Below are positions 9,745 through 62,723 of a stretch of 64,000 nt of DNA, piece by piece. How positions within the stretch are numbered: position 1 is the first letter of the stretch; each line of letters opens with the position of its first letter. The position numbers were made by a program, and so were the translations under genes. This DNA is from a virus. The stretch spans positions 54,974-118,973 of IMG/VR virus record IMGVR_UViG_3300023174_000079; one strand, written 5' to 3'. The notes under the pieces were generated by a model. That model was not told where the DNA came from and searched no databases. It saw only the letters and a list, made by a program, of their open reading frames with translations.

Positions 9745-9772
9745 AATATAATATAAGATACCTAAAAATCAA
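9745..9772 (-). promoter_or_regulatory. Early-type promoter TTGATT-16-TATATT for the recombination operon
   Basis: TTGATT (9767-9772) and TATATT (9745-9750) are 16 nt apart on the minus strand. The -10 ends 8 nt before the ATG at 9736. It is the likely promoter of the uvsY-uvsW-55-47-46-GT operon. The -35 overlaps the start codon of the divergent gene at 9772. Confidence 0.7.
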
Positions 9773-10029
9773 TGAGTAAATTTAACAGGCTTGTAGAAGA
9801 ACTTTTATCTGAAATGGCAGCGAATGTCGCTGGTGGTGCTGGTGCTGTTACAGGTCCGGTAACATCGGGTAATTACGGAAATCAGTTTCCCTCACAAAAT
9901 GATAGTGCATATGCACCTAATGATGCACGCGTACCTACTATACTAGGTGTTAAATCTTCAGGTAAAAAGAAAAAAAAGAAAGTTAAAGTACCTATTCAGC
10001 GTAGAAGTATATATTTACCGAGAATGTAA
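9772..10029 (+). CDS. Small head protein candidate: targeting leader, major-capsid N-arm mimic, Lys-rich tail
   Basis: This 85-residue protein has three parts. Residues 1-14 (MSKFNRLVEELLSE) look like a T4 capsid-targeting leader ending in an LxE protease site. Residues 35-58 match residues 79-102 of the major capsid protein encoded at 50366-51871 at 21 of 24 positions, including NQFPSQND and AYAPNDAR. The tail has KKKKKKVKV and QRRS, suited to nucleic-acid contact. The codons of the shared segment differ between the two genes, so the match is kept at protein level and is not a recent copy. A role inside the capsid shell is inferred. I know of no named family. Confidence 0.75.
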   Translation: MSKFNRLVEELLSEMAANVAGGAGAVTGPVTSGNYGNQFPSQNDSAYAPNDARVPTILGVKSSGKKKKKKVKVPIQRRSIYLPRM

Positions 10030-10040
10030 TAACTATCTGT

Positions 10041-10466
10041 ATGGATAGCGGACATTGGCTTTTGAGTGAAGGTGTTATTATTGATGAGAATACTTTTGGG
10101 TTTATCTATTTGATTGTTAATACTATTAATAATAAAAAGTATATCGGTAAAAAGCAATGCACTAGTCGTATCAAGCGTAGACCATTAAAGGGTAAGAAAA
10201 ATAATCGGATTGATTATAAGGAATCTGATTGGAGATCCTATACAAGCTCGTCTAATGAGCTCAATGCAGATATAGAGAAGTATGGAAAGGATAAATTTAT
10301 ATTTAAAATTTTACGTACTTGTGATTCAAAGTGGGCTTTAGCGTACTATGAAATAAAAGAACAGTTAGGTGAAGATGTACTTTTGCGTGATGATTATTAT
10401 AATGGAATTTGTAACGTACGTATTGGTAAGGCTCCTAAGCTCGAGCTTGCAAAATTTAAACTATAA
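10041..10466 (+). CDS. GIY-YIG endonuclease (probable homing endonuclease)
   Basis: The 141-residue protein carries the GIY-YIG core as FIYLIVNTINNKKYIGKKQ at about residues 20-38, followed by an Arg/Lys-rich segment and a conserved Glu further on (YYEIKEQLGED). It is free-standing, without a recognisable DNA-binding module. It lies 11 nt after the capsid-arm-mimic gene. Its ATG sits in the loop of a small hairpin (CTATC/GATAG, 10033-10048), which may limit translation. Confidence 0.75.
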   Translation: MDSGHWLLSEGVIIDENTFGFIYLIVNTINNKKYIGKKQCTSRIKRRPLKGKKNNRIDYKESDWRSYTSSSNELNADIEKYGKDKFIFKILRTCDSKWALAYYEIKEQLGEDVLLRDDYYNGICNVRIGKAPKLELAKFKL

Positions 10467-10475
10467 TATTATACT
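10447..10475 (+). promoter_or_regulatory. Early-type promoter TTGCAA-17-TATACT
   Basis: TTGCAA (10447-10452) and TATACT (10470-10475) are 17 nt apart. Exactly 6 nt separate the -10 from the GTG at 10482. This matches the spacing rule seen at other genes and decides between two adjacent GTG codons. Confidence 0.6.
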
Positions 10476-10481
10476 GTTGTG

Positions 10482-11057
10482 GTGATCGAAAGCTGTACAT
10501 TTAATCAGTTTAATCTTCAGTTGATTAGCTTTGAGTCTATTTTTAAAAATATCGAAGTTGCTTTTATTAATGATCTCGCAAAATATCAGCTTTTACCAAC
10601 AAAGAAAGTAACGAGAGATATTAAGAAATTACTATATCATCATATTTTTTACGGTACATGTGAATGTCTCTTAAGGCGTGAATCAAGGGAACGGGTTGTA
10701 TTGCTCAAGGCAATGCAATTAGATTTAACCGGTTTTCAAGTTTTGCAATACTTCGATAAGGAAATAATTCAAAAACACGTTGATCAGATAGCTCTAAAGG
10801 TAGCGAGATTATTACCAATAAACATGTATGGTTATGAAAATATAGAATTTTGTTCACTCAAGCATTTGTATTCAAAGCGTGATGGTAATGTTATTGAACT
10901 TATCGAACGTATACGATCTTATGCATGGACAAAGGATTTTACGCGGTCACATTATACGTTTGCAAAAGTCAGAGGGTTTGTAAAGCGTAATGAATTGACT
11001 TTTTTAAGTGAGAAGTACTTTAATCAACTTAAAACAAAGCAACTTCTCTATGTATAA
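10482..11057 (+). CDS. Hypothetical protein, 191 residues
   Basis: No family is recognised. The protein is helical and basic, with a run of His and Tyr (LLYHHIFYGTCECLL) and several Arg/Lys pairs, and has no membrane segment or signal peptide. Two GTG codons (10479 and 10482) could start it. The second is preferred because it lies 6 nt after a TATACT -10 box. It stands alone between a homing endonuclease and a late promoter, so it is probably expressed early. Confidence 0.6.
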   Translation: MIESCTFNQFNLQLISFESIFKNIEVAFINDLAKYQLLPTKKVTRDIKKLLYHHIFYGTCECLLRRESRERVVLLKAMQLDLTGFQVLQYFDKEIIQKHVDQIALKVARLLPINMYGYENIEFCSLKHLYSKRDGNVIELIERIRSYAWTKDFTRSHYTFAKVRGFVKRNELTFLSEKYFNQLKTKQLLYV

Positions 11058-11059
11058 GT

Positions 11060-11067
11060 ATTAAATA
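11060..11067 (+). promoter_or_regulatory. Late promoter box ATTAAATA
   Basis: The box lies 6 nt before the ATG at 11074. It is one mismatch from the T4-type late consensus TATAAATA plus a weak first base. It heads the 11074-13421 group. Confidence 0.5.
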
Positions 11068-11073
11068 CTTATA

Positions 11074-11523
11074 ATGAAATTTCTTGATAAACTTAATAAG
11101 CAATGGACTCTACTAGATGAGGATGATGCTACACAAGTTCCTGATAATACAGCGGATGCTGCAGCTCCTGATCCTAATGCAATTCCAAAGCCTGCTACAG
11201 GTGAGCTAGCGCAAGTAGCTCCTGAAGGCTATGTCGGTCTTGTAAAGCTGTTAGCAAAGGCAACAGCTATGAATTTTCCTGCTGGTGCGCTTGATGAAAT
11301 TTTTAGAACAGATATTACAGCTGAGAACGCTTTTCCTATGCAGACTGCTCTCGAAGCTGCTATTAAGCAGAATGAAATGTACAGCGACAATCCAGAAAGA
11401 TTACAAAATATAAATTATAATAAATTTGCTAATAGCATTAACGCTGGAAATTTTATAAACAAATATAAGCAGCTTCTTGCAGCTATGAAAAAGCAAGATC
11501 CATATTTAAAAGATGAGCTTTAA
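11074..11523 (+). CDS. Probable capsid-targeted protein with LLDE-ending leader
   Basis: The 149-residue product begins MKFLDKLNKQWTLLDE, a short amphipathic leader ending in an LxDE/LxE-type site as expected for gp21-type processing. An acidic Asp/Ala/Pro-rich linker follows, then a helical domain (GYVGLVKLLAKATAMNFPAG and onward). The domain family is not recognised. A late box precedes it, and the next gene overlaps it by 11 nt, so the two are co-translated. Packaging in the head is inferred from the leader and the neighbourhood. Confidence 0.65.
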   Translation: MKFLDKLNKQWTLLDEDDATQVPDNTADAAAPDPNAIPKPATGELAQVAPEGYVGLVKLLAKATAMNFPAGALDEIFRTDITAENAFPMQTALEAAIKQNEMYSDNPERLQNINYNKFANSINAGNFINKYKQLLAAMKKQDPYLKDEL

Positions 11524-12802
11524 AAGTTTAAAAGATATTTACGCGGAAAAATGTATAGGTGCACCTGTAGGTTTGATGCCTAGGCAGGCTGTAATCTTAT
11601 CTAAATTTGTTACCGAGGGTGGAGCAGCTGGTCATATGGATCATCCTTTCGATTTACCGCAAGTCAAAACAGGTAGAGATTTAATTAATGTTTTTAATAA
11701 AACGATTCAATCAATACAGAAAAATCCGCCTTCAGTAAAAATTGACGGTGTTAATGCCTCAATAAAGCTTGTTACAAACCCTGACGGTAGTATGGAATTT
11801 GGTCTTGATCGTGGATCAAATAAGCCGCTTGATGTAAAAGGCGTAACAAGAGCAGATCTCAATAGTAGGTTTACTGAAGGTCACGGAATGATCGAGGTTG
11901 GCGGTATTGTATTAGATATTTTTAATAAGGCTCTCCCTACTATAAAAGACGATTTAGCAAAGCTTGGTTTCTTTAAAAAGCCTCTACTCCTTAATATGGA
12001 ATATGTAAAGGGCGGTACAAATGTCATTGGTTACGCAGATAATTTTCTTGCTATTCACGGTATTAACGAAATTTATGAAGTTAAAAGCCCGGTTAAAGGA
12101 TCTATCTCTCGTGCAACAAGAGAGATTTCCTATAATCCTGAAGTATTGCAAGATCTTATTGATAAAGTTAATAAAATTGCGAAGAATTATGGATTTAAGA
12201 TTCTTGGTTCAGTACCTGCTAAGTTAAAGAATAGGGTCGATCTCACCTCAACGCTTAATACTGAATTAACAGTTAAATACTCTGACCATACAGCAGAAAC
12301 TAAAACATTAAAAGCTTGGCTTGAACAAAGCAAGAACCCACGTGGACAAAAGATTACCTTATCAAATGGAAAGAAGGTCGATGCACTTAGTAAGCAAGTC
12401 TATATGGATATTCTTAATGGTGTAGCGCTAGATCAATACATTAAGGACGGTAATAAGGAAGACGAAAAAGCAGCTATAAGTGGTGCGGTCTTTTACCATG
12501 CGGTTCGTCTTTTGGGTCAGAAGATTATCGATTCTATGACTTCTGAAATGGGAGATATTAACAATCACGAAGGTGTTGTAATACGTGATTCGTCAATCTC
12601 ATCAAAGCCATTTAAGCTTACCGGTAATTTTATTGTCCGAGGTCTTGAGTCAAGATTTGCACAACAAGATAATGAAGAAGTTTCAGGGTTGTTGCAGAAT
12701 ATTGCTACAGCAAACGGTCTCTATGTTAATTCACCGTACGATCGCGCGACCGGTGGTACGGGAGCCGGTGGCGGTACACGAGTTGGTGCAGAGGTTAGCT
12801 AA
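11513..12802 (+). CDS. Nucleotidyltransferase/ligase-fold protein (DUF6267-like)
   Basis: This 429-residue protein contains GHMDHPFDLP, then VKIDGVNASIKL (Lys nucleophile about residue 76), NMEYVKGGTNVIGY, NNHEGVVIRD and KPFKLTG. In that order these correspond to motifs I, III, IV and V of covalent nucleotidyltransferases such as RNA/DNA ligases. The H-x-x-H-P element before a KxDG motif resembles the uncharacterised DUF6267 family of marine T4-like phages (from memory). A ligase-like adenylylation activity is inferred. The start MSFKSLKDIYAE resembles the leaders of its neighbours, and the C-terminus is Gly-rich. The true substrate is unknown. Confidence 0.7.
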   Translation: MSFKSLKDIYAEKCIGAPVGLMPRQAVILSKFVTEGGAAGHMDHPFDLPQVKTGRDLINVFNKTIQSIQKNPPSVKIDGVNASIKLVTNPDGSMEFGLDRGSNKPLDVKGVTRADLNSRFTEGHGMIEVGGIVLDIFNKALPTIKDDLAKLGFFKKPLLLNMEYVKGGTNVIGYADNFLAIHGINEIYEVKSPVKGSISRATREISYNPEVLQDLIDKVNKIAKNYGFKILGSVPAKLKNRVDLTSTLNTELTVKYSDHTAETKTLKAWLEQSKNPRGQKITLSNGKKVDALSKQVYMDILNGVALDQYIKDGNKEDEKAAISGAVFYHAVRLLGQKIIDSMTSEMGDINNHEGVVIRDSSISSKPFKLTGNFIVRGLESRFAQQDNEEVSGLLQNIATANGLYVNSPYDRATGGTGAGGGTRVGAEVS

Positions 12803-12803
12803 T

Positions 12804-13421
12804 ATGAAATACAAAGCTTTAGTTGAAAATATCATAGCAGACATTAAGCCTACAGGGTCAAAGGCTGTCTTTGTTTTTGGAAGAATGAACCCCCCTACTC
12901 TCGGCCATGAATTGTTAATAGCAAAAGCTGTTGAAGTCGGTAGAGCTGAACATTGCGATACATTTGTTATTCTTTCAAAAACACAAGATACTAAAAAGAA
13001 CCCTGTTCCATATAACGACAAGCTTGCAGCTATAAATGCTGCTCTTCCGCGTGTTAATTTTATAGATTCAGAAAAAATTAAAACTTTATTTGATGCCGTA
13101 CAGTTTTTAATCGATAGTGGTTATACTGATTTAATACTTGTTTGTGGTAGTGATCGGGCAGCGGAATATGATGCTCTATTTAACAAATATATTAATAATC
13201 CAGATCCAGAAAAACGCTTAGCATTAACTAGCTTTAAAACAGCTGTCGCCGGTGCAAATAGAGATCCGGATAGTGATGATGCTTCTGGTATAAGCGCTAC
13301 GAAGGCTCGTAATTTAGCAAAAGCTGGAGACTTTGAAGCTTTTAAAAAAATATTACCTACACAAATGCCTGAAAATCAGGCTAAGGTTTTATTTGATGAC
13401 ATTCGAAAGAACTTAAAATAA
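12804..13421 (+). CDS. NMN adenylyltransferase-like nucleotidyltransferase
   Basis: The 205-residue protein has the cytidylyltransferase-like fold. FVFGRMNPPTLGHELLI carries the (T/H)xGH nucleotide-binding motif at residues 32-35, and SGISATKAR supplies the ISxTxxR-type motif near residue 170. Relatives make NAD from NMN or transfer CMP/AMP. The start was moved to 12804 because the upstream extension overlaps the previous gene, and the residues MKYKALVENII match the leader pattern of this cluster. The spacing to the previous stop is 1 nt. Whether the leader is removed is unknown. Confidence 0.75.
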   Translation: MKYKALVENIIADIKPTGSKAVFVFGRMNPPTLGHELLIAKAVEVGRAEHCDTFVILSKTQDTKKNPVPYNDKLAAINAALPRVNFIDSEKIKTLFDAVQFLIDSGYTDLILVCGSDRAAEYDALFNKYINNPDPEKRLALTSFKTAVAGANRDPDSDDASGISATKARNLAKAGDFEAFKKILPTQMPENQAKVLFDDIRKNLK

Positions 13422-13422
13422 A

Positions 13423-14046
13423 TTAAGCTTCGAGCATCTTTATCATTCCGTAGACAGCATCTTCAACCCTTTCTTTTGGCTGGCTACGCATAAGTTCTTT
13501 AATTTTATTAATTAAGTTTTCACCGCCAGCATCTATACTCTTATAGAGATCTTGTTCTGTCTTTTCTTCAATCTCAATATCGTGATCAACTCTGTGCTTA
13601 AAATCTTCGTAATCCTTATAACCGAGCACACTATTAATGTTATCTGTAGCTTTGCTTAATTTATCTGCTACCCAAGGCTCAATTTCACTATCACAAGGTA
13701 TAATGTCGTAGAGCATCGCTGCCATTTTTGTAATTCTGTAAAGGTTTTGCTTTGCCATATTGGATGCCTTGTGTTCGGGATGTTCACCGGTATGTGTAAA
13801 TTCATCGTCTTCATTATCATAATCGCTATGTTTTTTCTTCCTTGCAAATACCATATCATCTTCCGATTTTACGTCTTCTTCACTCCACTCGCACTCACAA
13901 TCTTCTGCTGCTTGATTACACTTAAGACATTTTCTCATAGGTGCGCCATTTTCGCTATCTTCAGCGTTTGGGCCAAGGCCTACATTTTCCTGTAAGAACA
14001 CTCTTGTACTATAGAGGGTATTAAGATCATCAATATAACTACGCAT
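13423..14046 (-). CDS. Conserved T4-like protein with leader and Cys cluster
   Basis: The 207-residue product starts at 14046 with MRSYIDDLNTLYSTRVF, a leader ending in FLQE (candidate cleavage). A Cys motif (CLKCNQAAEDCEC) follows, then an acidic region. The C-terminal half contains NLYRITKMAAMLYDIIP and EPWVADKLSKATDNINSV, a helical pair that recurs in proteins of marine T4-like phages. The upstream in-frame extension to 14346 was rejected because it crosses the divergent gene and its promoter. A late box (AATAAATA) lies 7 nt upstream of the ATG. It converges with the 12804 gene, with stops 1 nt apart. Confidence 0.7.
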   Translation of the reverse strand: MRSYIDDLNTLYSTRVFLQENVGLGPNAEDSENGAPMRKCLKCNQAAEDCECEWSEEDVKSEDDMVFARKKKHSDYDNEDDEFTHTGEHPEHKASNMAKQNLYRITKMAAMLYDIIPCDSEIEPWVADKLSKATDNINSVLGYKDYEDFKHRVDHDIEIEEKTEQDLYKSIDAGGENLINKIKELMRSQPKERVEDAVYGMIKMLEA

Positions 14047-14053
14047 ATGTAAA

Positions 14054-14061
14054 TATTTATT
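14054..14061 (-). promoter_or_regulatory. Late promoter box AATAAATA
   Basis: The box lies 7 nt before the ATG at 14046. It is back-to-back with the plus-strand box at 14068-14075, forming a compact divergent late promoter. Confidence 0.6.
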
Positions 14062-14067
14062 CTCGCA

Positions 14068-14075
14068 ATTAAATA
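14068..14075 (+). promoter_or_regulatory. Late promoter box ATTAAATA
   Basis: The box lies 5 nt before the ATG at 14081 and heads the four-gene run to 15196. Confidence 0.5.
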
Positions 14076-14080
14076 ATATT

Positions 14081-14389
14081 ATGCAAAGTTTATTTGAATC
14101 ACGCTTTATTGAAGTATTAGAAAAAAACGGACCGAGCTTATCTATTAAGCGTGGTGAAAAGCTCCCCGTAAGTCGTGGCGGTGGGTTAACTGCAAAGGGT
14201 CGTGCCAAATATAATCGCGCTACAGGATCACATCTCAAGGCCCCTGTTACAGGTAAGGTTAAGAAGGGGTCTAAGGCATCTAAGCGTAGAAAGAGTTTTT
14301 GTGCTAGAAGTAAAGCTTGGATTCCTGCAGGCGGCTGCGCTGGCAAGAAGACAAGAGGTTGTGCTGCGAGGAGGAGATGGAAATGCTAA
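14081..14389 (+). CDS. Small basic Cys-containing head protein candidate (DUF6321-like)
   Basis: The 102-residue protein is strongly basic. Residues 1-14 (MQSLFESRFIEVLE) form a leader with FIE and VLE sites. The body carries GGGLTAKGRAKYNRATGS, KAPVTGKVKKGSK, RRKSFCARSKAW and RRRWKC. The KGRxxYNRxxGSxLKAP and RRKSFCAR signatures recall an uncharacterised family (DUF6321, from memory) found in phages and large viruses. The next gene starts in GAGGAG-preceded overlap with its stop. DNA condensation in the capsid is an inference from the charge and leader. Confidence 0.7.
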   Translation: MQSLFESRFIEVLEKNGPSLSIKRGEKLPVSRGGGLTAKGRAKYNRATGSHLKAPVTGKVKKGSKASKRRKSFCARSKAWIPAGGCAGKKTRGCAARRRWKC

Positions 14390-14535
14390 CGTTCAGACAA
14401 TTTATTATAGAAAAAAAGGTTAAGCGCGATCGTTGCTTAAGAAGAGCGGATTCAGTCTATGGTAAAAAAACGTCTGCTTATAAGTCTGGAGCTGTTGTAA
14501 AATGCCGTCAAGGAAAAATCTGGAAAAAGAAATGA
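14383..14535 (+). CDS. Tiny basic protein with capsid-targeting-type leader
   Basis: The 50-residue product begins MLTFRQFIIEKK, which closely resembles the T4 internal-protein leader MKTYQEFIAEA as I recall it. The remainder has CLRRADSVYGKKTSAYKSG and VVKCRQGKIWKKK, a small family I recall from phages and giant viruses without a known role. GAGGAG lies 6 nt before this ATG, whereas the alternative ATG at 14377 abuts it, so 14383 is preferred. It overlaps both neighbours. Confidence 0.65.
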   Translation: MLTFRQFIIEKKVKRDRCLRRADSVYGKKTSAYKSGAVVKCRQGKIWKKK

Positions 14536-14780
14536 AATTTAATGACCTTTATCAAATATTAATGGAAGACTTTTCAAAAGAAAAGTCCCAAGGGCTTCAT
14601 GGATGGTTTTCGCGTAATAAGGGAAAAGGCTGGGTCGATTGCAAAACGGGTAAACCTTGTGGTAGACAAAAAGGTGAAAAGAGAAGAAGCTATCCAGCCT
14701 GTCGACCAACAATGGCTATGTGTAATAGTAGAAAGAGACTCAAAAAAGGCTCCAAACGAATTTCTTGGAAGAAAAAATAA
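14532..14780 (+). CDS. Small basic Cys-rich protein with leader
   Basis: The 82-residue product starts MKFNDLYQILMEDFSKE, a leader with an ILME site. The body contains GLHGWFSRNKGKGWVDCKTG, PCGRQKGEKRRSYPACRP and C-terminal KKGSKRISWKKK. The WVDCKTGKPCGR...YPACRP pattern is a widespread small family of unknown role, with several Cys that might bind metal or form disulfides. Its ATG overlaps the preceding TGA, and GGAAAAAGA precedes it. It is the third of three consecutive tiny basic leader-bearing genes. Confidence 0.7.
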   Translation: MKFNDLYQILMEDFSKEKSQGLHGWFSRNKGKGWVDCKTGKPCGRQKGEKRRSYPACRPTMAMCNSRKRLKKGSKRISWKKK

Positions 14781-14785
14781 TTATA

Positions 14786-15196
14786 ATGAAAACTTTTAAA
14801 AATTTTATCGAAAATAGACCTATACTCGGTGTTACGGAATATATAACAATAGATGGGATCGGATCTGTTGTCGCAAAAATAGATAGTGGTAATGAAGCTT
14901 ATAATGTTCTACACGGTGTAGATATTGAAGACAGCGGAGATGATACCGTGACCTTTACTACTATTAATGACAAAAAAATTACACTCCCTCGCACTGGTAG
15001 TATTGATATCAATATTGGCAGTGGTAACATCGAAACCCGTCCAACGGTTGTACTCGATATTATTCTAAGAGATATACCTCATAAAGGCATTACCTTTAGT
15101 ATCGCTGATCGAGCGGATAATGAACAACAGGTGTTAATAGGAGAGCCGTTTATTAAACGGCTCAACGCTCTCGTAGATGTTAAGAGAGCTGTTTAA
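14786..15196 (+). CDS. Retropepsin-like aspartic protease with capsid-targeting-type leader
   Basis: The 136-residue protein begins [15 protein letters not shown], the closest match in the window to the T4 internal-protein leader. The body shows a retropepsin-like pattern: [19 protein letters not shown] (catalytic-type D-S-G), [12 protein letters not shown], and [17 protein letters not shown] (the hydrophobic-Gly partner segment). It resembles bacterial RimK-linked zinc-protease-annotated proteins, which share this fold. The start at 14786 is preferred over an earlier ATG because of the leader. Its stop overlaps that of convergent folE. Being packaged into the head is inferred. Confidence 0.7.
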
Positions 15197-15840
15197 AACA
15201 AATTTCTGTTTTGCGCAAACTCAATAAACTTGTAAAACTCAGCACGTGAGCTATCACCGTTTTCAAGAAATGCACCGGACATTCTCGCAGTTCTCATTGT
15301 TGAGTCGTGTTTTATACCACGATTTGAGCAGCAAGTATGCTTAGCTTCAATCATAACAGCTACACCGGCGTTATTTTCACATACTGTATCAATAAAACTA
15401 GCTATTTGATTTGTTAGGTTTTCCTGTACCTGTGGACGGCGAGCAAACCAATCTACAATTCTATTAAGCTTACTCAATCCAATAACTTTACCATCAGCGC
15501 GTGGAATATATGCAACGTGTGCATATCCTGTAAACGGTAACCAGTGATGTGCGCAAAGGCTAGTCAATTTAATATTATTCTGACAAACCATACCGTCATA
15601 TTTATCGACATTGTCGAACGCTGTTATTTTTGGAGGTGGCGTAAAGCAACCCTGACAGATGTCATACATATACGCCTTAGCAACACGTCGCGGCGTGTCA
15701 ATAGCGTTTGGATCTGATTCAAAATCAAAACCAAGGGTATTCATAAATTTACCAAAATGTTTAGCTGCTGCTTCGACACGCTTTTTCATTTCTGCTTCTG
15801 TTAAAACAATGTTACTATTTGAGTTTTTTAATTCAGTCAT
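15193..15840 (-). CDS. folE: GTP cyclohydrolase I
   Basis: FolE converts GTP to 7,8-dihydroneopterin triphosphate, the first step towards folate and 7-deazaguanines. It is 215 residues long. Key elements are [12 protein letters not shown] (zinc Cys and catalytic His), [20 protein letters not shown], and [14 protein letters not shown] with the second zinc Cys. With queD and queE nearby, a role in deazaguanine supply is more likely than folate. It is a single-gene unit with its own early promoter. Confidence 0.96.
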
Positions 15841-15847
15841 ACAACAT

Positions 15848-15875
15848 ATATTAATATATTAACCTTTTAAAGCAA
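15848..15875 (-). promoter_or_regulatory. Early-type promoter TTGCTT-16-TAATAT for folE
   Basis: TTGCTT (15870-15875) and TAATAT (15848-15853) are 16 nt apart. Seven nucleotides separate the -10 from the folE ATG. Confidence 0.65.
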
Positions 15876-15918
15876 CTTTTTTTTATTTGATCTGAGCACG
15901 AAAAGGTGGTGATGACAG

Positions 15919-15926
15919 CATAAATA
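15919..15926 (+). promoter_or_regulatory. Late promoter box CATAAATA
   Basis: The box lies 5 nt before the ATG of the homing endonuclease gene at 15932. Confidence 0.6.
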
Positions 15927-15931
15927 TTAAT

Positions 15932-16759
15932 ATGAATAACATCAAATGTTTAGAATGTGGCAAGGAATTTAAATTTCTTAATAATACACATCTTAAAAGA
16001 CATAATTTAGCTATACAAGAATATAAAAATAAGTGGAATATTAAAGAGAGTTTGGTTTGTGATGATTTAAAGAAGGTAAGAGGTGATTATACGCGTGGTA
16101 AGACATACGAGCAGATACATGGAAAAGCTACAGCGCAGAGATTAAAAGAGTTGAGATGTATACATACAACTAATCAAATGAATGACGTAAATCAGCGTTT
16201 ATTAAGAAAAAAGGTTTGCGGTAAATGGGCGGCTAACGCTGATGAATATTTATCACGTACCAGTAAGATGAAAATTGCTTGTCAGAATCCCGATGTTATA
16301 AAGCGTCGCAGAGAGACATTGTTGAAGCGATACAATACATCTAATACGCTGAGAATACAACCACGTTTTTCAAAAATGGCTTATGAATATATTAAAAATT
16401 ATATCAAACAGAATAATCTTGATGTATCATGCTGCTATTATGCAAAAGGCGGTATTAATAATAGAGAATATGTTTATTTTGATTCTGATACACAAAAACA
16501 TATTATGTTTGATCTTGTTGTAATCAATAGCGAAACAAAGAAAATAGAATTAATTTTCGAATATAATGGCCCGTTTCATTGGACGGAAGATGATGTTAGG
16601 CAAGATCCGTATAGTTCATCGACTTGGTTTAAAACAAATTCTATGACTAAGCTAGAATCATATAATTATGATCAATATAAATTAAATATCGCAAAAAAAA
16701 TTAGCACAAATGTTGTCGTTTATTGGCTACGTGATAACCGTATCGAACAAGTTAAATGA
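15932..16759 (+). CDS. Homing endonuclease, Vsr/EDxHD-like
   Basis: The 275-residue protein opens with a C2H2-like finger (CLECGKEFKF..HLKRH). A middle module with SKMKIACQNPDVIKRRRETL resembles NUMOD-type DNA-binding repeats. The C-terminus has a Vsr-like PD-(D/E)xK nuclease: IMFDLVVINSETKKIELIFE, then YNGPFHWTED, as in EDxHD homing enzymes. It is an inserted free-standing gene between folE and leader-bearing genes. A late box 5 nt upstream suggests late, leaderless expression. Confidence 0.8.
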   Translation: MNNIKCLECGKEFKFLNNTHLKRHNLAIQEYKNKWNIKESLVCDDLKKVRGDYTRGKTYEQIHGKATAQRLKELRCIHTTNQMNDVNQRLLRKKVCGKWAANADEYLSRTSKMKIACQNPDVIKRRRETLLKRYNTSNTLRIQPRFSKMAYEYIKNYIKQNNLDVSCCYYAKGGINNREYVYFDSDTQKHIMFDLVVINSETKKIELIFEYNGPFHWTEDDVRQDPYSSSTWFKTNSMTKLESYNYDQYKLNIAKKISTNVVVYWLRDNRIEQVK

Positions 16760-16764
16760 TCTAA

Positions 16765-16772
16765 CATAAATA
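16765..16772 (+). promoter_or_regulatory. Late promoter box CATAAATA
   Basis: The box lies 6 nt before the ATG at 16779, so that gene can be expressed independently of the endonuclease gene. Confidence 0.55.
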
Positions 16773-16778
16773 ATAAAG

Positions 16779-17207
16779 ATGAAGTATAATCGAATCATTT
16801 TGGAGAGCTTACAGAAAGTAGCTCTAAAGAAAGTACGCATTAAGGTTGACCCTATTAATGTTAGCCAAGGTGCAGATTTATCAAATTGTAATGGTTATGA
16901 GGGGTATGTATTAGCTGAAGATCGAGAAATTACAAAAGTTTTAGTTATTACCCCTGATCAAGAAAATGATATGTCAATAATGGATATACCTAACGAACAT
17001 CTCGAACAACTCGCTAATGTTAATGAAAATTTAACAGCTTTAAAAGAGTTTATCTTACTGGCGCTTGATATTGCTAGTGACGATCCTCTTATTCAAAACA
17101 TTAATGCCTGTGAGTCGATTGACGATGTTGAGGTGTTTTTAAAAGATAGAGGGTTGACAGATGAAGATATAACAAATCTTTATAAATATTATATCGCCAA
17201 TGAATAA
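16779..17207 (+). CDS. Probable capsid-targeted hypothetical protein
   Basis: The 142-residue product begins MKYNRIILESLQKVALKKV, a leader with an IILE site. The body has GYEGYVLAEDREITKVLVI (beta-strands) and an acidic helical C-terminus. I do not recognise the family. It overlaps the next gene by 8 nt and has its own late box. Head targeting is inferred from the leader and promoter only. Confidence 0.6.
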   Translation: MKYNRIILESLQKVALKKVRIKVDPINVSQGADLSNCNGYEGYVLAEDREITKVLVITPDQENDMSIMDIPNEHLEQLANVNENLTALKEFILLALDIASDDPLIQNINACESIDDVEVFLKDRGLTDEDITNLYKYYIANE

Positions 17208-18126
17208 TTTCGACGCATTAGCTAAAGTTGTAACTGGCGAATCAACGATAGGTGATTACGTCCGAGCTGCAGGTAGAGCAGCTGCACGTACACCCGGTGC
17301 TGTTATAACAGCACCGTTTAAAGCTGCAAAAGCTGCTATTAAGGGTACCGTACAACTTCCAGGTCGTGCTATACAGGCTGTTGGTAAGACTATTAGTGGA
17401 GCTGGAAAGCTCTATAATGTACTCGGTGCTGGTCAAACGGGCGGTGGAGCCGAATTATTACAAAGCATTGGTGGTAATATTTCAAAAGCTGGTGGTGCTA
17501 TAGCGGATGTACCTACAAAAATTCATAATGCTATTGTTGCATATGGTCAGAGTGCTGATTTTAAGCGGAAGTACTTAAGCGATTATAAAAACTATGTTAA
17601 TTCTACATATCAAAGATTACCTGATAGGCAGAAAAAACAAATTAAATCAGCCAAGGATATTACTGAAATTGAAAAGATACTTAAAAACTCAATACCTGGA
17701 ATTACCGATAATCAAGTCAAGAATGTAACAACTTCCTTCTTTAAGGGAGGTAAAATAAAAAATGATCCCAAGGTTAAAAATATACTTACAAATACTCCAG
17801 CTCCTACGCCTACTAGAACACCTACGTCGGTCCCTGTATCTACTCCTACACCGACTTCTACATCTACACCGACTTCCGCGCCGGCTAACACATTAAATAC
17901 CTCTCAAATTAAACCAAGAATAAAAGCAAATCGTTCAATGGTCAATGACATCGCTAATGGAATAATCTACAAGTATATGGGTAGATCAAGCGGTGGTTGG
18001 TATGTTTATGACCCGAAGACAAAGACGATAGACCCTGCCCCTATCGACCCACAGGAACAAAAGCGTGTAGCAGAACTTTGGCGTAAAAAGGAGATTGCTA
18101 ATATGACATCTCGCCACAAAAAATAA
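17200..18126 (+). CDS. Probable capsid-targeted protein with Ala/Gly region and Pro-Thr repeat linker
   Basis: The 308-residue protein begins MNNFDALAKVVTGESTIG, a weaker version of the leader. Residues 20-105 are Ala/Gly/Lys-rich (AAGRAAARTPG, APFKAAKAAIKG) and could be an amphipathic, membrane-active or DNA-binding helix. A Pro-Thr-Ser repeat linker (TPTPTST type, about residues 200-230) joins a C-terminal domain with IIYKYMGRSSGGWYVYDP. Alpha-helical Ala/Gly regions of this kind occur in injected phage proteins, but no homologue is recognised. Confidence 0.6.
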   Translation: MNNFDALAKVVTGESTIGDYVRAAGRAAARTPGAVITAPFKAAKAAIKGTVQLPGRAIQAVGKTISGAGKLYNVLGAGQTGGGAELLQSIGGNISKAGGAIADVPTKIHNAIVAYGQSADFKRKYLSDYKNYVNSTYQRLPDRQKKQIKSAKDITEIEKILKNSIPGITDNQVKNVTTSFFKGGKIKNDPKVKNILTNTPAPTPTRTPTSVPVSTPTPTSTSTPTSAPANTLNTSQIKPRIKANRSMVNDIANGIIYKYMGRSSGGWYVYDPKTKTIDPAPIDPQEQKRVAELWRKKEIANMTSRHKK

Positions 18127-18130
18127 ATTT

Positions 18131-18328
18131 ATGCCATATAATATTCAAAAATCTAAAGCTGGCTATAAAGTACGCTATAAGAAGGGCGGTAAGATGCATA
18201 CAGTACCCGGTGCTTCAACGTCAAAAGAAAAGGCTAGAAAACGTATTGCTGCTATAGAGATAAGCAAACACGCGCATGAAAGCTTTAATCAAGTCGTAGA
18301 AAAATTACTAAAAACTCTAATCTTCTAG
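18131..18328 (+). CDS. Small basic protein with a leader-like C-terminus
   Basis: The 65-residue product starts MPYNIQKSKAGYKVRYKKGG and continues KMHTVPGASTSKEKARKRI. This is a compact basic beta/helix pattern I recall in small phage and algal-virus proteins. The last residues, ESFNQVVEKLLKTLIF, resemble the N-terminal leaders of neighbouring genes (compare SKFNRLVEELLSE at 9772). It follows the previous gene by 4 nt, so it is in the same transcript. The function is unknown. Confidence 0.6.
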   Translation: MPYNIQKSKAGYKVRYKKGGKMHTVPGASTSKEKARKRIAAIEISKHAHESFNQVVEKLLKTLIF

Positions 18329-18457: not shown

Positions 18458-19123
18458 ATGAGCTATCAGAGTACTAAACTTATCGAACTTGGATCATGTG
18501 CTTTTAGACAATGGAGAGCTACATCGCATTGTTCAAAAATTCACGGCTATCAATTAATGGCTAAATTCTATTTCGGTGGATCTACATTAGATGATAAAAA
18601 TTGGATCGTTGACTTTGCAAATCTTAAACAACTTAAAGCAACACTACAGCAACAATTCGATCATACATTATGTGTAGCTAAGGATGATCCTTTGCTTGAA
18701 ATATTTCAACACTTACATAATATGGGAGGATGTGATGTCCGTATCATGGATGGTGTAGGTATTGAGAAAACTGCTGAATATTGTTTTAAAGCAGCTCAGA
18801 CATTTATAAAGGAAGCATATGGTGATCGTTGTTGGGTAGAAAGAGTTGAAGTATTTGAGCATGAAGCAAATTCAGCTATCTATAGTGAACCGAGACCTGT
18901 TGTTTATTCAACAAGCATCTCATCAATAGCTCCATCTACACCAACAGTAGCTGAGCCTATCATACAACAAAACGTCGAACAACTTCAAATACCCTTAGAA
19001 GCACCAACTACAGAACAACCAGTAGCTGAGCCACCTAAAGCGGGTCCTGTACCACTCCGTCCCAATGTCACAAATGGCTACTCCGGTCTCTTTGATAATA
19101 TTCGCTGGGGTGCAAGTCGGTGA
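18458..19123 (+). CDS. queD: 6-carboxy-tetrahydropterin synthase, with C-terminal extension
   Basis: QueD turns dihydroneopterin triphosphate (from FolE) into 6-carboxytetrahydropterin. The core (about residues 1-130) contains FRQWRATSHCSKIHGYQL with zinc-ligand-type His and Cys, WIVDFANLKQLKATL and FDHTLCV. The HGY in place of the usual HGH is seen in the FRQWRA-type variant. After residue 145 a Pro/Thr/Ser/Glu-rich tail of about 75 residues (SSIAPSTPTVAEP, EAPTTEQPVAEPP) is added, which is unusual for the family (about 120-160 residues). GTG of the next gene overlaps the stop. Confidence 0.88.
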   Translation: MSYQSTKLIELGSCAFRQWRATSHCSKIHGYQLMAKFYFGGSTLDDKNWIVDFANLKQLKATLQQQFDHTLCVAKDDPLLEIFQHLHNMGGCDVRIMDGVGIEKTAEYCFKAAQTFIKEAYGDRCWVERVEVFEHEANSAIYSEPRPVVYSTSISSIAPSTPTVAEPIIQQNVEQLQIPLEAPTTEQPVAEPPKAGPVPLRPNVTNGYSGLFDNIRWGASR

Positions 19124-23592: not shown

Positions 23593-23600
23593 TATTTATA
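23593..23600 (-). promoter_or_regulatory. Late promoter box TATAAATA
   Basis: The box exactly matches the T4 late octamer, 6 nt before the ATG at 23586. Confidence 0.7.
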
Positions 23601-23622
23601 GTAATATATATAGAATAACCAT

Positions 23623-27427: not shown

Positions 27428-27464
27428 TCGGTAATATAAGCGCCTATAATACATCAAATATAGT

Positions 27465-30662: not shown

Positions 30663-30683
30663 GTAGATATACAAGAAAAAGCA

Positions 30684-30691
30684 TGTAAATA
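30684..30691 (+). promoter_or_regulatory. Possible late promoter box TGTAAATA
   Basis: The box lies 8 nt before the ATG at 30700. It is one of the few promoter candidates inside the glycan island. Confidence 0.4.
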
Positions 30692-30699
30692 ATTTTTTT

Positions 30700-32575: not shown

Positions 32576-32580
32576 AATAC

Positions 32581-34030: not shown

Positions 34031-34034
34031 AGCA

Positions 34035-35672: not shown

Positions 35673-35677
35673 TACAA

Positions 35678-36319: not shown

Positions 36320-36320
36320 A

Positions 36321-37091: not shown

Positions 37092-37095
37092 TAAT

Positions 37096-37629: not shown

Positions 37630-37653
37630 CCTTTCAAATAAAGTTATTATATT
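37626..37653 (+). promoter_or_regulatory. Early-type promoter TTGACC-16-TATATT
   Basis: TTGACC (37626-37631) and TATATT (37648-37653) are 16 nt apart. Eight nucleotides lie before the epimerase ATG. Confidence 0.65.
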
Positions 37654-37661
37654 AATGTGAT

Positions 37662-38654: not shown

Positions 38655-38655
38655 A

Positions 38656-39351: not shown

Positions 39352-39355
39352 AAAC

Positions 39356-39383
39356 TTGATAAACAAATTTAATATAGTATCAT
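39356..39383 (+). promoter_or_regulatory. Early-type promoter TTGATA-16-TATCAT
   Basis: TTGATA (39356-39361) and TATCAT (39378-39383) are 16 nt apart. Six nucleotides lie before the ATG at 39390. Confidence 0.6.
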
Positions 39384-39389
39384 CAATCT

Positions 39390-48291: not shown

Positions 48292-48954
48292 ATGTCACTA
48301 CGATTATTAGTTGAAACACCGGCCTCAGAAGAGCAATTCGAGTATATTGAAGAGCAGAAAAATCTTAAAGGTCAATCTGTAATGAAGATTCGTGGCCCTT
48401 ATATGGCTTGCGAAGAGGTTAATAAGAACAAGAGAATCTATACAGAGTCGGATATGGAGCGTGAAGTTAATCGTTACGTCCAAGAAATGGTTATCCCTAA
48501 GCGTGCATTAGGTGAATTAAACCACCCTGCTTCAGCTGAAGTTGATCTCGAAAGAGCATGTCATATGGTTACCTCTTTACGTAAGGATGGTAATATTATC
48601 ATAGGTGAATCAATCGTTCTTTCAACCCCTGTTGGTCAAATTGTTCGTTCGCTTATTAATGATGGCGTTAAAGTCGGCATGTCAAGTCGTGCTCTTGGTC
48701 AGCTTGAAGAGCAATCTGATGGAATTAATCGTGTCAATGAAATGCGTCTTATTGCCGTTGACTGCGTAGCTGATCCAAGCTGTCCTAAAGCTTTCGTTAA
48801 CGGTATTCTTGAATCAAAGCAATTCGTTCTTGGCATGGATGGAAAACTTGAAGAAGTTTATGAATCTCTTGAAAAGAGTATTCGCGGCTTACCTCGCCAT
48901 GATGTCGCTTCATTCTTAAGAGAACAAATTCTTACCTTTCTCTCAAAACTTTAA
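48292..48954 (+). CDS. 21: Prohead core protease gp21
   Basis: The 220-residue protease (T4 gp21 about 212) cuts head proteins after (L/I/F)-x-E motifs. It has MKIRGPYMACEEVNKNKRIY, ALGELNHPASAEVDLERA (catalytic His), VKVGMSSRALGQLE (catalytic Ser) and AVDCVADPSCPKAFVNGIL. Its own N-terminus, MSLRLLVETPASEE, has an LVE self-cleavage candidate. This enzyme is expected to process the leader-bearing small proteins elsewhere in the window. A late box is 5 nt upstream, without a Shine-Dalgarno. Confidence 0.94.
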   Translation: MSLRLLVETPASEEQFEYIEEQKNLKGQSVMKIRGPYMACEEVNKNKRIYTESDMEREVNRYVQEMVIPKRALGELNHPASAEVDLERACHMVTSLRKDGNIIIGESIVLSTPVGQIVRSLINDGVKVGMSSRALGQLEEQSDGINRVNEMRLIAVDCVADPSCPKAFVNGILESKQFVLGMDGKLEEVYESLEKSIRGLPRHDVASFLREQILTFLSKL

Positions 48955-48959: not shown

Positions 48960-49400
48960 ATGATTTCTACACCTACATCTAATCCACTTAAAGTACAGCG
49001 CGATAATCTCGCTAAACAGATTGCTGCTGCAAAGGCGAGCGGTAAAGAGGATATTATTAAGAAATTGTCTCCTAACTATATAGCTGTAAAAAAGAAGCTC
49101 GAGTCACAGGAAAAAGTCAAAGCTAGTAAAGCTGTTGCTGATGCTGGTAAGAACCCTAAAGAAGCTTCTGATATTGCCGATGAACTTACAGGTGGTGAAG
49201 AAAAGCCTAATGAAGCTAATGAAGAGAGACTAAATAAAATTATGACTAAAAACGAAAGCACTAATATTGCTAACTTTTTAAAGGCTGTTTCTCAAAAAAA
49301 TTACGCCCAGGCCGATAAGTATTTACAAGGTGTAGTCGAATCTAAGCTCAAAGCTTCTATCGACAAAGCTATCCAAAAATCAACAATTTATGCAAAATAA
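48960..49400 (+). CDS. Prohead core protein (gp67/gp68-like)
   Basis: The 146-residue protein is highly Lys/Ala/Glu-rich and helical. It lies between gp21 and gp22, where T4 has small core proteins. Segments such as QRDNLAKQIAAAKASGKEDI and KAVSQKNYAQADKYLQGVVE with SKLKASIDKAIQKS fit a scaffold-core role. The QGVVE site may be cut by gp21. It overlaps gp22 by 11 nt. The assignment rests on position and composition. Confidence 0.6.
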   Translation: MISTPTSNPLKVQRDNLAKQIAAAKASGKEDIIKKLSPNYIAVKKKLESQEKVKASKAVADAGKNPKEASDIADELTGGEEKPNEANEERLNKIMTKNESTNIANFLKAVSQKNYAQADKYLQGVVESKLKASIDKAIQKSTIYAK

Positions 49401-50268
49401 TATCTCCGAACTCCTCAAGGCCGCTACAAAGGACATTCTTACAGAAGATGTTCTTAAGGAAATTGAAAGCGCCTATGAAGCCTCAGTCGACGCTAAAGTT
49501 CAACTTCACGTTGAAAAGGCTCTTAACGAACAGGACGAAGATTATGCTAGTAAGCTTGAAACTCTTTTAGAAGCTGTTGACGCTGATCATACAGCCAAGC
49601 TCGAAAAAGTTGTCGAAGCTCTTGACGCTGATCGTGCTCGTAAGCTTAAGCAAATCGTTGAAAAATATGAAACAGCTCTCACAGAAGAGGCTACCAATTT
49701 TAAGAGTGAAATGATCGATCAGGTCAGCAATTATCTCGAACTTTATCTTGAAGAGAAGCTCCCAGTAGCTGAAATTCAAGAAGCTGTCAACAATAAGCGT
49801 GCTGCTTCCGTTTTAAACGAGATGCGTAACATGCTTTCTGTTGACATGGCTCTCGCCCAAGAGAGCATCCGTGATGCCGTCGTTGATGGCAAAACAAGAA
49901 TTGATGAAGCTGCTAGTCAGCTTGAAACCGCTAATAAGCGGATTGCTACATTAACTGAGCAGTTAAACACTGTTAATGCGAGCTTAACACTCGAGAAGAA
50001 GATTTCTTCACTCGACGAGGATAAGAAGAAGTATATGAAAAAGATGCTTGGTTCAAAGTCCGCTAAGTTTATCGCTGAAAACTTTGATTACACTCTCGGT
50101 CTTTATGAGAAATCTGAAGAAGAGCGGTTCAACAATCTTGTTACCGAAGCTAGGGAAGAAACAGTCACAACAGCTGTTGATCGCCCGATAATCGAGGAGT
50201 CCGTTGAGACTCCTGCAAGTGAAGATCGTGCATTCAATCTTTACTTGAACGAGCTTCATAAGTACTAA
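49390..50268 (+). CDS. 22: Prohead scaffolding protein gp22
   Basis: The 292-residue protein is acidic and a continuous coiled coil, as T4 gp22 (about 269). It contains an internal near-repeat, LLEAVDADHTAKLEKVVE followed by ALDADRARKLKQIVEKYE. Later segments are VNNKRAASVLNEMRNMLSVD and SSLDEDKKKYMKKMLGSKSA, ending FNLYLNELHKY. It forms the core on which gp23 assembles and is destroyed by gp21. Its position right before gp23 is the T4 order. Confidence 0.88.
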   Translation: MQNNISELLKAATKDILTEDVLKEIESAYEASVDAKVQLHVEKALNEQDEDYASKLETLLEAVDADHTAKLEKVVEALDADRARKLKQIVEKYETALTEEATNFKSEMIDQVSNYLELYLEEKLPVAEIQEAVNNKRAASVLNEMRNMLSVDMALAQESIRDAVVDGKTRIDEAASQLETANKRIATLTEQLNTVNASLTLEKKISSLDEDKKKYMKKMLGSKSAKFIAENFDYTLGLYEKSEEERFNNLVTEAREETVTTAVDRPIIEESVETPASEDRAFNLYLNELHKY

Positions 50269-50365: not shown

Positions 50366-51871
50366 ATGTCAAAATCAATCCGTCCTTCACAGTCCTACAT
50401 CGATGAGAGAAGCGCTAAGACATTGCTTGAGAAGTGGAGTCCTGTATTGGATTACACATCCAACAACGTTGCTGCGATTGAAGACGATCATACCCGCTTG
50501 AACACCGCCATCCTCCTTGAGAACCAAGAGAAGTGGTGCTTTGAAGCCTCCAACAGTGATGCTGGTGGTGTCTTCGGTTCAAACGCTACATTCAACCAGT
50601 ATGGCAATCAGTTCCCTTCACAGAACGATAACGCCTATGCTCCGAATGATGCTCGTCTTCCTAAGATCCTCATCCCGATGATCAGGCGTACATTCCCTGA
50701 GCTCATCACTAACGAAATCGTTGGTGTTCAGCCCATGAGTGGTCCAGTCGGTCTTGCTTTTGCACTCCGTTATAAGTACGAACCTACTTCCCTCGGCTAT
50801 CAGAGTGGATCGCTTGATGCTTCAAGCACACAGCAGTACAGCACAGCTAGTAATGCTCTCCTCTCCGCTAACCCTGAATTAGGTTATCAGTACCTCAACA
50901 CAGCCTTCACCGGCGCCAGCTCTTCAGCTCTCTCCGGTGCTACAGGTTACTTCACAATGGTTCCTGAAGATCAGGGCGTTGCCGCACTCCTCGGCCAGTT
51001 CGAGTTGTCCAGCAACATTCCTCAGATCGTCGTTTCCTTCGAGAAGACAGCAGTTGAAGCCGGCACCCGCCGTCTTGCAGCTCGCTGGTCCGTTGAGCTC
51101 GAACAGGATCTTAAGAACATGAACGGTATCGATATCGATACTGAGCTCACCAACGCTATGTCGTATGAGCTTCAGGCCGAAATCGACCGTGAAATGATCA
51201 TTCGTATGATCCAGACAGCCCTCAATGCCGGTTACGGCGTTGGGTTCTCCGTCTGGAATCCTGCTTCAGCCGATGGTCGCTGGCTCGTTGAGCGTAATCG
51301 TGACTTCTATCAGAGACTCATCGTTGAGGCTAATCGTATTGCCGTCCGTAACCGCCGTGGTTCCGCCAACTTCATCGTTGGTACACCTCGCGTTTGCGCG
51401 ATCCTTGAAATGCTCCCTGAATTCCAGTGGGTACCCGTTCAAGGCTCTGTCAATACTCAGCCCGTCGGTGTTGCAAAGGTAGGTTCCTTAGCTGGTCGCT
51501 TCAATGTTTACCGTGATACACGTACAGAGGCTCAGTTCGAGGCTAACGCCGGGGGTAACTTCGGTGGTAAGGGTGGTTTCCCAACTAACGTTGGTGGAAC
51601 TAGCGCCCAGACTCGTACTACCCGTCTCGACTACGCACTTCTCGGTTACAAGGGACCTGAATTCTACGACACCGGTATCATCTACTGCCCATACATCCCT
51701 GTTATGGTTCAGCGTACTATCGGTCCTAACGACTTCAGTCCCCGTGTTGGCTTGCTCACCCGTTACGGTGTCGTTGATAATATCTTTGGTGCAAACCTTT
51801 ATTATCACGTTATCGTTCTCCAGGGTCTCAGCACAGCCTTCACACCGGCTACGCAGTCTGTCTACTTCTAA
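50366..51871 (+). CDS. 23: Major capsid protein gp23
   Basis: The 501-residue protein (T4 gp23 521) has an N-terminal delta region and WCFEASNSD around residues 57-65, where gp21 would cut after Glu60. NQYGNQFPSQNDNAYAPND (residues 77-95) follows. RRTFPELITNEIVGVQPMSG and PVGLAFALRYKY are the conserved HK97-fold start. SANFIVGTPRVCAILEML and LLGYKGPEFYDTGIIYCPYI are further gp23 blocks. Codon use is richer in C-ending codons (TTC, AAC, ATC, CTC) than neighbours, as expected for a very highly expressed gene. No late box lies near its ATG. Confidence 0.97.
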   Translation: MSKSIRPSQSYIDERSAKTLLEKWSPVLDYTSNNVAAIEDDHTRLNTAILLENQEKWCFEASNSDAGGVFGSNATFNQYGNQFPSQNDNAYAPNDARLPKILIPMIRRTFPELITNEIVGVQPMSGPVGLAFALRYKYEPTSLGYQSGSLDASSTQQYSTASNALLSANPELGYQYLNTAFTGASSSALSGATGYFTMVPEDQGVAALLGQFELSSNIPQIVVSFEKTAVEAGTRRLAARWSVELEQDLKNMNGIDIDTELTNAMSYELQAEIDREMIIRMIQTALNAGYGVGFSVWNPASADGRWLVERNRDFYQRLIVEANRIAVRNRRGSANFIVGTPRVCAILEMLPEFQWVPVQGSVNTQPVGVAKVGSLAGRFNVYRDTRTEAQFEANAGGNFGGKGGFPTNVGGTSAQTRTTRLDYALLGYKGPEFYDTGIIYCPYIPVMVQRTIGPNDFSPRVGLLTRYGVVDNIFGANLYYHVIVLQGLSTAFTPATQSVYF

Positions 51872-62140: not shown

Positions 62141-62506
62141 GTGAAGGTTTATAATTATAATCCCGATAATAGACTCTATACATTTGAAGAGGAAGCCGAT
62201 CCAGATCCTCTTGCTCCCGGTAGATGGTTAATACCGGCATATGCCACAACTATTAAACCACCTGAGGTAGGTGAGAGTCAAATAGCAATCTTTAAAGAAG
62301 AAGAGCAGGAGTGGGAAGTAGAGGTAATCAAACAACCTTCCATGCCTTATTATATTTTAAGAGCACGCGAATACCCTCCTATATTTGAATACATTGATGG
62401 TATTGTAAAGAATGATCACGAACAAATTAATAAGTATATTAGGGCTTGTCAAGAAGTAAAAGCTAAATATCCTAAACCCGATACAATAGACAATTATGAA
62501 ATTTGA
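62141..62506 (+). CDS. Tail fibre assembly-like protein
   Basis: The 121-residue protein begins at GTG with KVYNYNPDNRLYTFEEEADP, then DPLAPGRWLIPAYATTIKPP and EEQEWEVEVI. The Y-x-Y-D/N start, an A-D-x-D-P-L-x-P-G-x-W-L-I-P-A-x-A-T segment and a Trp after it are the pattern of fibre-assembly chaperone domains placed after fibre genes. The position right after the fibre gene supports this. It overlaps the next gene by 11 nt. Confidence 0.65.
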   Translation: MKVYNYNPDNRLYTFEEEADPDPLAPGRWLIPAYATTIKPPEVGESQIAIFKEEEQEWEVEVIKQPSMPYYILRAREYPPIFEYIDGIVKNDHEQINKYIRACQEVKAKYPKPDTIDNYEI

Positions 62507-62723
62507 TAAACTAATAGAAGACTTTAATGTTTTACCAAAGAGTCAAAACGCTATTCAATCTGGACCTGATATTGGTATGACAACAGGGGATATAGCAGGT
62601 ACTTTTCCTAATCGAAATGGAGCTGTTATCGGTAATCTTTTACCTGATAATGTTCAAGTAAAACTCAAGAAAAAACACATCAATAAGATTTGTAATCTTC
62701 TGTCTTTAGCTCTTAAAGACTAA
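62496..62723 (+). CDS. Small leader-bearing protein, possible head component
   Basis: The 75-residue product starts MKFDKLIEDFNVLPKSQNAI, a leader with an LIE site (cut after residue 8 or so). A short Gly/Asn/Pro-rich segment (TFPNRNGAVIGNLLPDN) is followed by a basic helix (VKLKKKHINKICNLL). The order (leader, flexible segment, basic tail) parallels the gene at 9772. The function is not known. Confidence 0.6.
   Translation: MKFDKLIEDFNVLPKSQNAIQSGPDIGMTTGDIAGTFPNRNGAVIGNLLPDNVQVKLKKKHINKICNLLSLALKD

Follow-up and report, generated by a model that had tools for sequence, protein, structure and literature searches.

To our knowledge, only a handful of T4-type internal proteins have been characterised, and those of T4 are known to block host restriction. 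The T4 proteins Ip1-3 have the leader alone in common, and the GmrSD restriction enzyme that is blocked differs from one to the next (PMC12373910). In the IPIII leader, residues 4 and 7 direct packaging and residues 8 and 10 control processing (PMC9026906). Here we describe a set of genes with leaders of this type in an uncultured virus, record IMGVR_UViG_3300023174_000079 of IMG/VR. The stretch analysed, called the window below, comprises 64,000 bases (54974-118973 of the 118,973-base record); the remainder of the record was read too, and about 130-140 genes were called over the whole of it. Genes are named by their first coordinate in the window. Judged by its gp21 protease, its gp23 and a probable gp22 at 48.3-51.9 kb, the virus is a T4-like phage of bacteria. 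Between 9772 and 18126, ten genes on the + strand and one on the − strand (13423) encode a T4-type capsid-targeting leader, with an aromatic residue near position 4, hydrophobic residues and a Glu at position 8-35.

The window leaders resemble those of T4 IPI, IPII, IPIII and Alt, whose capsid-targeting sequences are cut by gp21, in their length, in their aromatic and hydrophobic positions and in the terminal Glu; as in T4, the genome contains a gp21-family protease and unrelated bodies stand behind similar leaders. The window differs from T4 in that no body was found to be related to a T4 Ip, several bodies are enzymes, and the set has roughly a dozen members with leaders of 8-35 residues and one C-terminal motif, in a distant clade. 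We consider it highly probable that the leaders function in capsid targeting, as those of the T4 internal proteins do. The sequence-only reading had proposed that such leaders mark packaged cargo, and this is supported by enrichment in the cluster, conservation among orthologues, swappability, anchoring to start codons across IMG/VR and virion mass spectrometry of related phages.

In the mechanism that we propose, the N-terminal 8-35 residues of the leader would bind the prohead scaffold core, so that tagged proteins would be enclosed in the prohead before DNA packaging; a gp21-family protease would then cut after the conserved Glu and free the mature protein, which would remain in the head until it passes, along with the DNA, into the next host cell. 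T4-like phages would attach this exchangeable leader to many kinds of cargo, which in the window would be a cytidylyltransferase, a ligase-fold candidate, a retropepsin-like protein, small basic proteins, a capsid-arm mimic and proteins of unassigned fold. Packaging of the leader proteins is likely in this phage, and from the analogy with T4 we infer cleavage, injection and effects in the host. At the leader junction of the window families the conserved Glu is shown by alignment, and the gp21 cut itself is predicted. The range of proteins that the tag sends along with the viral DNA is therefore probably much broader than T4 alone would suggest. The system is known in kind from T4; what is new is how broad it is, which enzymes it carries and how it fits virion proteins that had lacked an explanation.

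To describe the leaders we used a two-part form (F or Y at residue 3-5, followed by [ILVMF]-x-E by residue 22), which was chosen after the leaders had been seen. It is found in 8 of the 12 + strand genes examined in the cluster against 10 of the 130 other genes (Fisher p=4.9e-6), so that leaders are commoner here than in the rest of the genome, a comparison on which the sequence-only reading had made its proposal depend. Composition-preserving shuffles of the cluster N-termini gave a mean of 0.9 matches, none of 5000 reaching 8, and the form follows 6.5% of internal methionines. Because the form was defined after seeing the leaders, more weight falls on the tests with orthologues, with the sequence collection and with the virion proteins of related phages. 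In the related contigs (labelled L### and G###) used for orthologue comparison, 8 of 14 cluster families have the leader in 60% or more of their orthologues, as against 2 of 25 other families (p=0.0015). A broad leader expression applied to automatic gene calls of the window genome showed a weak contrast (3.5% against 1.8%), mainly because such calls miss short genes and upstream starts, and a T4 leader peptide of 22 residues, used as a query against the genome, gave no match. The start motif that had been suggested, M-(K/S)-x-(F/Y)-x-x-(L/F)-(I/L/V)-x-E, is too narrow in its literal form, because the window leaders run from 8 to 35 residues; an expression close to it fits 2-3 called genes in 119 kb.

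Judged from alignments, the leader is a real, conserved and exchangeable module. In ten aligned sequences of the 11513 family, M1, K4 and E35 are invariant, leaders as short as 10 and as long as 35 residues occur, and GGAAGHM right after the Glu is nearly invariant. The leaders that precede GGAAGHM include MITFKQFLLE (contig L011), MLTFKSYLKLIEE (L010) and MSFKSLKDIYAEKCIGAPVGLMPRQAVILSKFVTE (window). Nearly the same leader is found on unrelated bodies: MITFKQFLLE on the ligase-fold protein of L011 and MLTFKQFLLE on a 50-residue basic protein of L010, both close to MLTFRQFIIE of window gene 14383. Similarly, MQCLFERYFIE stands on a different body in G003 and the DUF6321 family has MQCLFESRFIQ. 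In the AlphaFold model of the 11513 protein, residues 1-40 mostly have a predicted local distance difference test (pLDDT) score below 50, and the ordered core begins at about residue 41.

Published virion proteomes of cyanophages provide a further line of evidence. The cytidylyltransferase T4-GC190 was detected in virions of S-SM1 and not in those of S-PM2 (Sullivan et al. 2010, PMC3037559), and we found that the S-SM1 protein starts MKKFSAFLNE, then A, the S-PM2 orthologue being without such a leader. Four non-lytic enzymes were reported from the S-CREM2 virion by mass spectrometry (PMC10665884), and all four bear leaders: an S-adenosylmethionine (SAM) hydrolase (MKDFDSFLEE), an APH-like kinase (MKRFDAFLTE), a cytidylyltransferase (MKNFSSFLTE) and a Cas9-like protein (MTSRWSNWSTGSDKKPLRFASFMAE, with RFASFMAE at residues 18-25). 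Leaders are also present on S-CREM2 ORF13 and ORF136, proteins without assigned function. Over the whole S-CREM2 proteome, an anchored expression derived from T4 leader positions fits 5 of 53 virion-detected gene calls compared with 2 of 141 undetected ones (p=0.017). Window gene 12804 belongs to the cytidylyltransferase family found in S-SM1 and S-CREM2 virions, with the same type of leader. The text of these two papers that was available offers no targeting mechanism for the virion enzymes (PMC10665884, PMC3037559), and the leader supplies one. Since they carry the leader, the sequences argue that the S-CREM2 enzymes are packaged rather than contaminants, and the leader would explain marine phage virion enzymes that have so far been left as possible contaminants. 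In the literature searched we did not find a link between the capsid targeting sequence and cyanophage virion enzymes, which other papers may contain; among papers searched that use the term, a T4 review alone also mentions cyanophages.

The leader was also searched across IMG/VR as DNA encoding K-T-F-K-[QE]-F-[ILM]-x-E, with no start codon required. At least 120 stretches were found, and an ATG stands directly before 115 of the 128 among the matches listed. A negative control with permuted codons (K-[QE]-F-[ILM]-K-T-F-x-E) gave 17 stretches, one of them after an ATG. The bodies behind the listed leaders form at least 60 mutually unmatched BLAST clusters, and the ten representative bodies scanned included a SAM lyase, an ADP-ribosyltransferase (ART-PolyVal), a zeta-toxin-like kinase, a glucosaminidase and a weak acetyltransferase match. 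Of nine leader-bearing contigs with a length of 70 kb or more, eight carry Peptidase_S77. We judge it reasonably probable that one exchangeable leader defines a way of loading cargo that is general among T4-like phages and can be read from sequence, with at least 60 unrelated clusters, many of them anti-defence or host-modifying enzymes, and with many uncultured phages carrying several to a dozen cargoes, capsid-arm mimics included. The description of the window as an unusually broad set holds for its enzymes and for its breadth beyond T4, and not for its rarity, since a broad tagged set is apparently common among T4-like phages. As far as the leader predicts packaged proteins, phage genomes and metagenomes become a catalogue of first-minute infection factors. 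In contig L110 (3300025288_000189 of IMG/VR) we observed seven leader-like genes in 14 kb, four starting MKTFKQFI-x-E, with apparently unrelated bodies.

Several observations weigh against capsid targeting as we propose it. The window phage is known from its genes alone, and the virion data come from related phages, of which the authors of the S-CREM2 study considered that the virion enzymes may be contaminants (PMC10665884). Ten genes outside the cluster also fit the two-part form. The propeptide of the window gp23 (50366-50560) seems to end ...KWCFE, then ASN, and not in (I/L)-x-E, compared with ...FLTE in T4, MLNE in S-PM2, VLTE in P-HM2 and FLSE in Melnitz, which makes the cutting specificity of gp21 less firm in this clade. 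In the 14786 family F4 is invariant and the leader Glu is Q or N in two orthologues, so that processing of this protein is less certain. Among size-matched short contigs, Peptidase_S77 was present in 3 of 15 with the leader and 0 of 12 controls, a difference that is not significant. Finally, a TATAAAT-type scan did not find late promoters, the form of which may differ in this clade: a TATAAAT-like box lies within 80 bases upstream of 7 of 142 genes, and TATAAATA is found 10 times on one strand and 8 times on the other. The statement that several members have late boxes was not borne out, such a box being present at just 16779 and 17200 among the leader genes checked.

The leaders might instead be scaffold-binding tags that serve head assembly alone, the tagged proteins being core or morphogenesis factors inside the prohead and not for injection. 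Slower head assembly of a T4 IPIII mutant (PMC9026906) is in line with this, and a place inside the head would be fitting for the small basic members 14383, 14532 and 14081 and for the capsid-arm mimic 9772. An assembly role is not plausible, however, for the cytidylyltransferase, the ligase-fold candidate and the retropepsin, or for the SAM lyase, ADP-ribosyltransferase and kinases tagged elsewhere, and IPI-III of T4 exert their action on GmrSD inside the host (PMC12373910); we regard this explanation as unlikely. It is very improbable that the leader serves to dock the N terminus to a partner other than the capsid, such as a host or phage complex or a membrane. The closeness of the leader to the targeting sequence mapped by experiment in T4, the conserved Glu at the junction, the gp21 gene in the same genomes and the tagged proteins reported from virions of related phages all speak against docking, even though the prediction for the 11513 protein shows a short, flexible leader and the cluster sits among replication and nucleotide-metabolism genes and not head genes. 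Chance resemblance has the least claim of all and is hardly credible. Short amphipathic N-termini with a Glu are common, and [ILVMF]-x-E alone lies near the start of 46% of genes compared with 35% after internal methionines, but chance would leave unexplained the enrichment of the joint pattern, its conservation among orthologues and the difference in ATG anchoring between the IMG/VR leader and its permuted control.

Capsid targeting remains the reading that we prefer, and one of its putative cargoes mimics the capsid protein itself. The segment of 9772 that follows the leader is identical at 26 of 37 positions (counted on the alignment) to the mature N-terminal arm of the phage's own gp23. 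The local alignment score is 126, compared with a maximum of 44-60 for shuffles and 39 for the second-best protein of the proteome. A scan of seven T4-like phage proteomes revealed exactly one gp23-arm mimic in five of them, with scores of 82-126 against 33-44 for the second-best protein per proteome. In a cross-comparison of the window, G002, T4 and S-CREM2, no mimic fits any gp23 but that of its own clade; the gp23 arms differ between clades, and the mimics therefore track their own gp23. S-CREM2 ORF160 was detected in virions (PMC10665884), and P-HM2_171 has the arm without a leader.

The sequence-only reading had listed a ligase-fold protein, a nucleotidyltransferase and a retropepsin-like protease among the members; the latter two were matched, and the first remains a candidate. 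Gene 12804 matches the PHROG cytidyltransferase family (E 1.9e-43), and Pfam CTP_transf_like above the cut-off. The AlphaFold model of 14786 matches RloA (9g58, E 9.8e-8), and in its family D33 and G35 are invariant with S or T between them, as in a D-[ST]-G active site; by modelled fold and motif it is retropepsin-like (RloA/RimB), with predicted activity. For 11513, the matches to ligases and a capping enzyme in PDB are weak (E 0.04 or worse) and BLAST against cultured phage records gave no match, while K-[IF]-D-G (KxDG) and EG[IV]V[IV]R are conserved in the family (KIDG and EGVVIR in the window protein).

In the window, three genes encode the cytidylyltransferase, the retropepsin and DUF6321 separately, and all three have leaders of their own. 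In contig L029 (5944-9552) a single protein of 1203 residues with one leader contains cytidylyltransferase, RimK ATP-grasp, retropepsin/RimB-like, DUF3140 and DUF6321 regions. Proteins of about 1200 residues of this type were also seen in L026, L030, L031, L033 and L036, the domains having been scanned in L029 alone. The L029 architecture, together with the ART-PolyVal domain of one IMG/VR leader body, recalls the polyvalent proteins, effectors whose entry together with phage DNA has been predicted (Iyer et al. 2017, PMC5512222). Unlike these, the window members are mostly single-domain proteins with a leader each (at most one recognised domain was found per member scanned), and the available text of that paper gives no leader-based targeting rule. 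The ejection proteins of the giant phages phiKZ and SPN3US and the Dar proteins of P1 are likewise packaged head proteins, those of SPN3US being cut by the prohead protease, but they belong to other propeptide families, as judged from literature descriptions.

Genes of the leader set, head genes and gp23-arm mimics. Coordinates are those of the window unless an accession is given.
Feature	Coordinates	Strand	Description	Leader or junction	Orthologue and family evidence
9772	9772..10029	+	85 residues; gp23-arm segment (mimic), basic tail	MSKFNRLVEELLSE	leader in 9/9 orthologue sequences
11074	11074..11523	+	149 residues; body without assigned family	MKFLDKLNKQWTLLDE	terminal Glu in 10/10 distinct orthologue sequences, neighbouring residues variable
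11513	11513..12802	+	429 residues; covalent nucleotidyltransferase (ligase/capping-like) candidate	MSFKSLKDIYAEKCIGAPVGLMPRQAVILSKFVTE35, then GGAAGHM	
12804	12804..13421	+	205 residues; cytidylyltransferase-like	MKYKALVE	PHROG and Pfam matches
13423	13423..14046	−	207 residues; body without assigned family	MRSYIDDLNTLYSTRVFLQE	[ILVMF]-x-E in 9/9 orthologue sequences
14081	14081..14389	+	102 residues; basic DUF6321 protein	MQSLFESRFIEVLE	Pfam DUF6321 E 1e-17; leader kept in 6/6 orthologue sequences
14383	14383..14535	+	50 residues; very basic	MLTFRQFIIE	leader in 4/4 orthologue sequences
14532	14532..14780	+	82 residues; basic, Cys-containing	MKFNDLYQILME	leader in 4/4 orthologue sequences
14786	14786..15196	+	136 residues; retropepsin-like (RloA/RimB-type)	MKTFKNFIE	
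16779	16779..17207	+	142 residues; body without assigned family	MKYNRIILE	leader in 5/6 orthologue sequences
17200	17200..18126	+	308 residues; Ala/Pro/Thr-rich	MNNFDALAKVVTGE	orthologue leaders end ALNE, VLNE
18131	18131..18328	+	65 residues; basic, C-terminal leader-like segment	...HE, then SFNQVVEKLLKTLIF	
62496	62496..62723	+	75 residues; outlying member	MKFDKLIE	MKFNKLVE in relative G002
gp21	48292..48954	+	gp21-family prohead protease (Peptidase_S77), presumed leader cutter		Pfam E 2.6e-33; PHROG head maturation protease E 3.4e-52
gp22	49390..50268	+	probable gp22-like scaffold protein, between gp21 and gp23		weak PHROG head scaffolding match E 0.009
gp23	50366..51871	+	major capsid protein	probable propeptide end ...QEKWCFE, then ASN	Pfam Gp23 E 1.7e-86
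G002 mimic			gp23-arm mimic		
T4 gp61.1	AF158101 18966-19130		gp23-arm mimic		
P-HM2_171	NC_015284 150780-151484		gp23-arm mimic		
S-CREM2 ORF160	OR473000 128342-129235		gp23-arm mimic		

The N-termini that the sequence-only reading had quoted are all present as open reading frames (9772, 14383, 14532, 14786, 16779 and 62496), and its count of about a dozen agrees with the further members 11074, 11513, 12804, 14081 and 17200, plus 13423 on the − strand; all of these lie within its interval (9772-17207) except 17200, which starts there and runs past its end. The gp21 gene that it had placed at 48292 is a real Peptidase_S77. Gene 10041, which has LLSE near its start, was rejected as a member, as it has no aromatic residue in place and its Glu is not conserved; it encodes a SegE-type GIY-YIG endonuclease, of a homing-endonuclease family. 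Genes 10479, 15193 (GTP cyclohydrolase-like) and 15932 do not belong to the set either. For genes 9772, 11074, 16779 and 13423, no family could be assigned convincingly from Pfam or PHROG.

Directly after the cluster, the C-terminal segment of gene 18131 may possibly be a capsid-targeting or processing propeptide, as suggested by its sequence; T4 gp21 and Alt undergo C-terminal processing too (PMC9026906). Its pattern, similar to [HN]E-SFNxxVxxLLKxL, is kept in L010, L012, L018, L019 and L021 and resembles the leader of the 9772 family.

By inspection, look-alikes of folE (15193-15840, −), queD (18458-19123, +), queE (21202-22026, +) and queC (record 53205-53939, −) were also seen. Together, these four genes, which are interspersed with the cargo cluster, suggest a pathway to 7-deazaguanine (preQ0) of the kind that serves DNA hypermodification. 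Farther downstream, a long run of + strand genes extends from 23600 to 41700, several of them glycosyltransferase-, methyltransferase- or sugar-metabolism-like by inspection.

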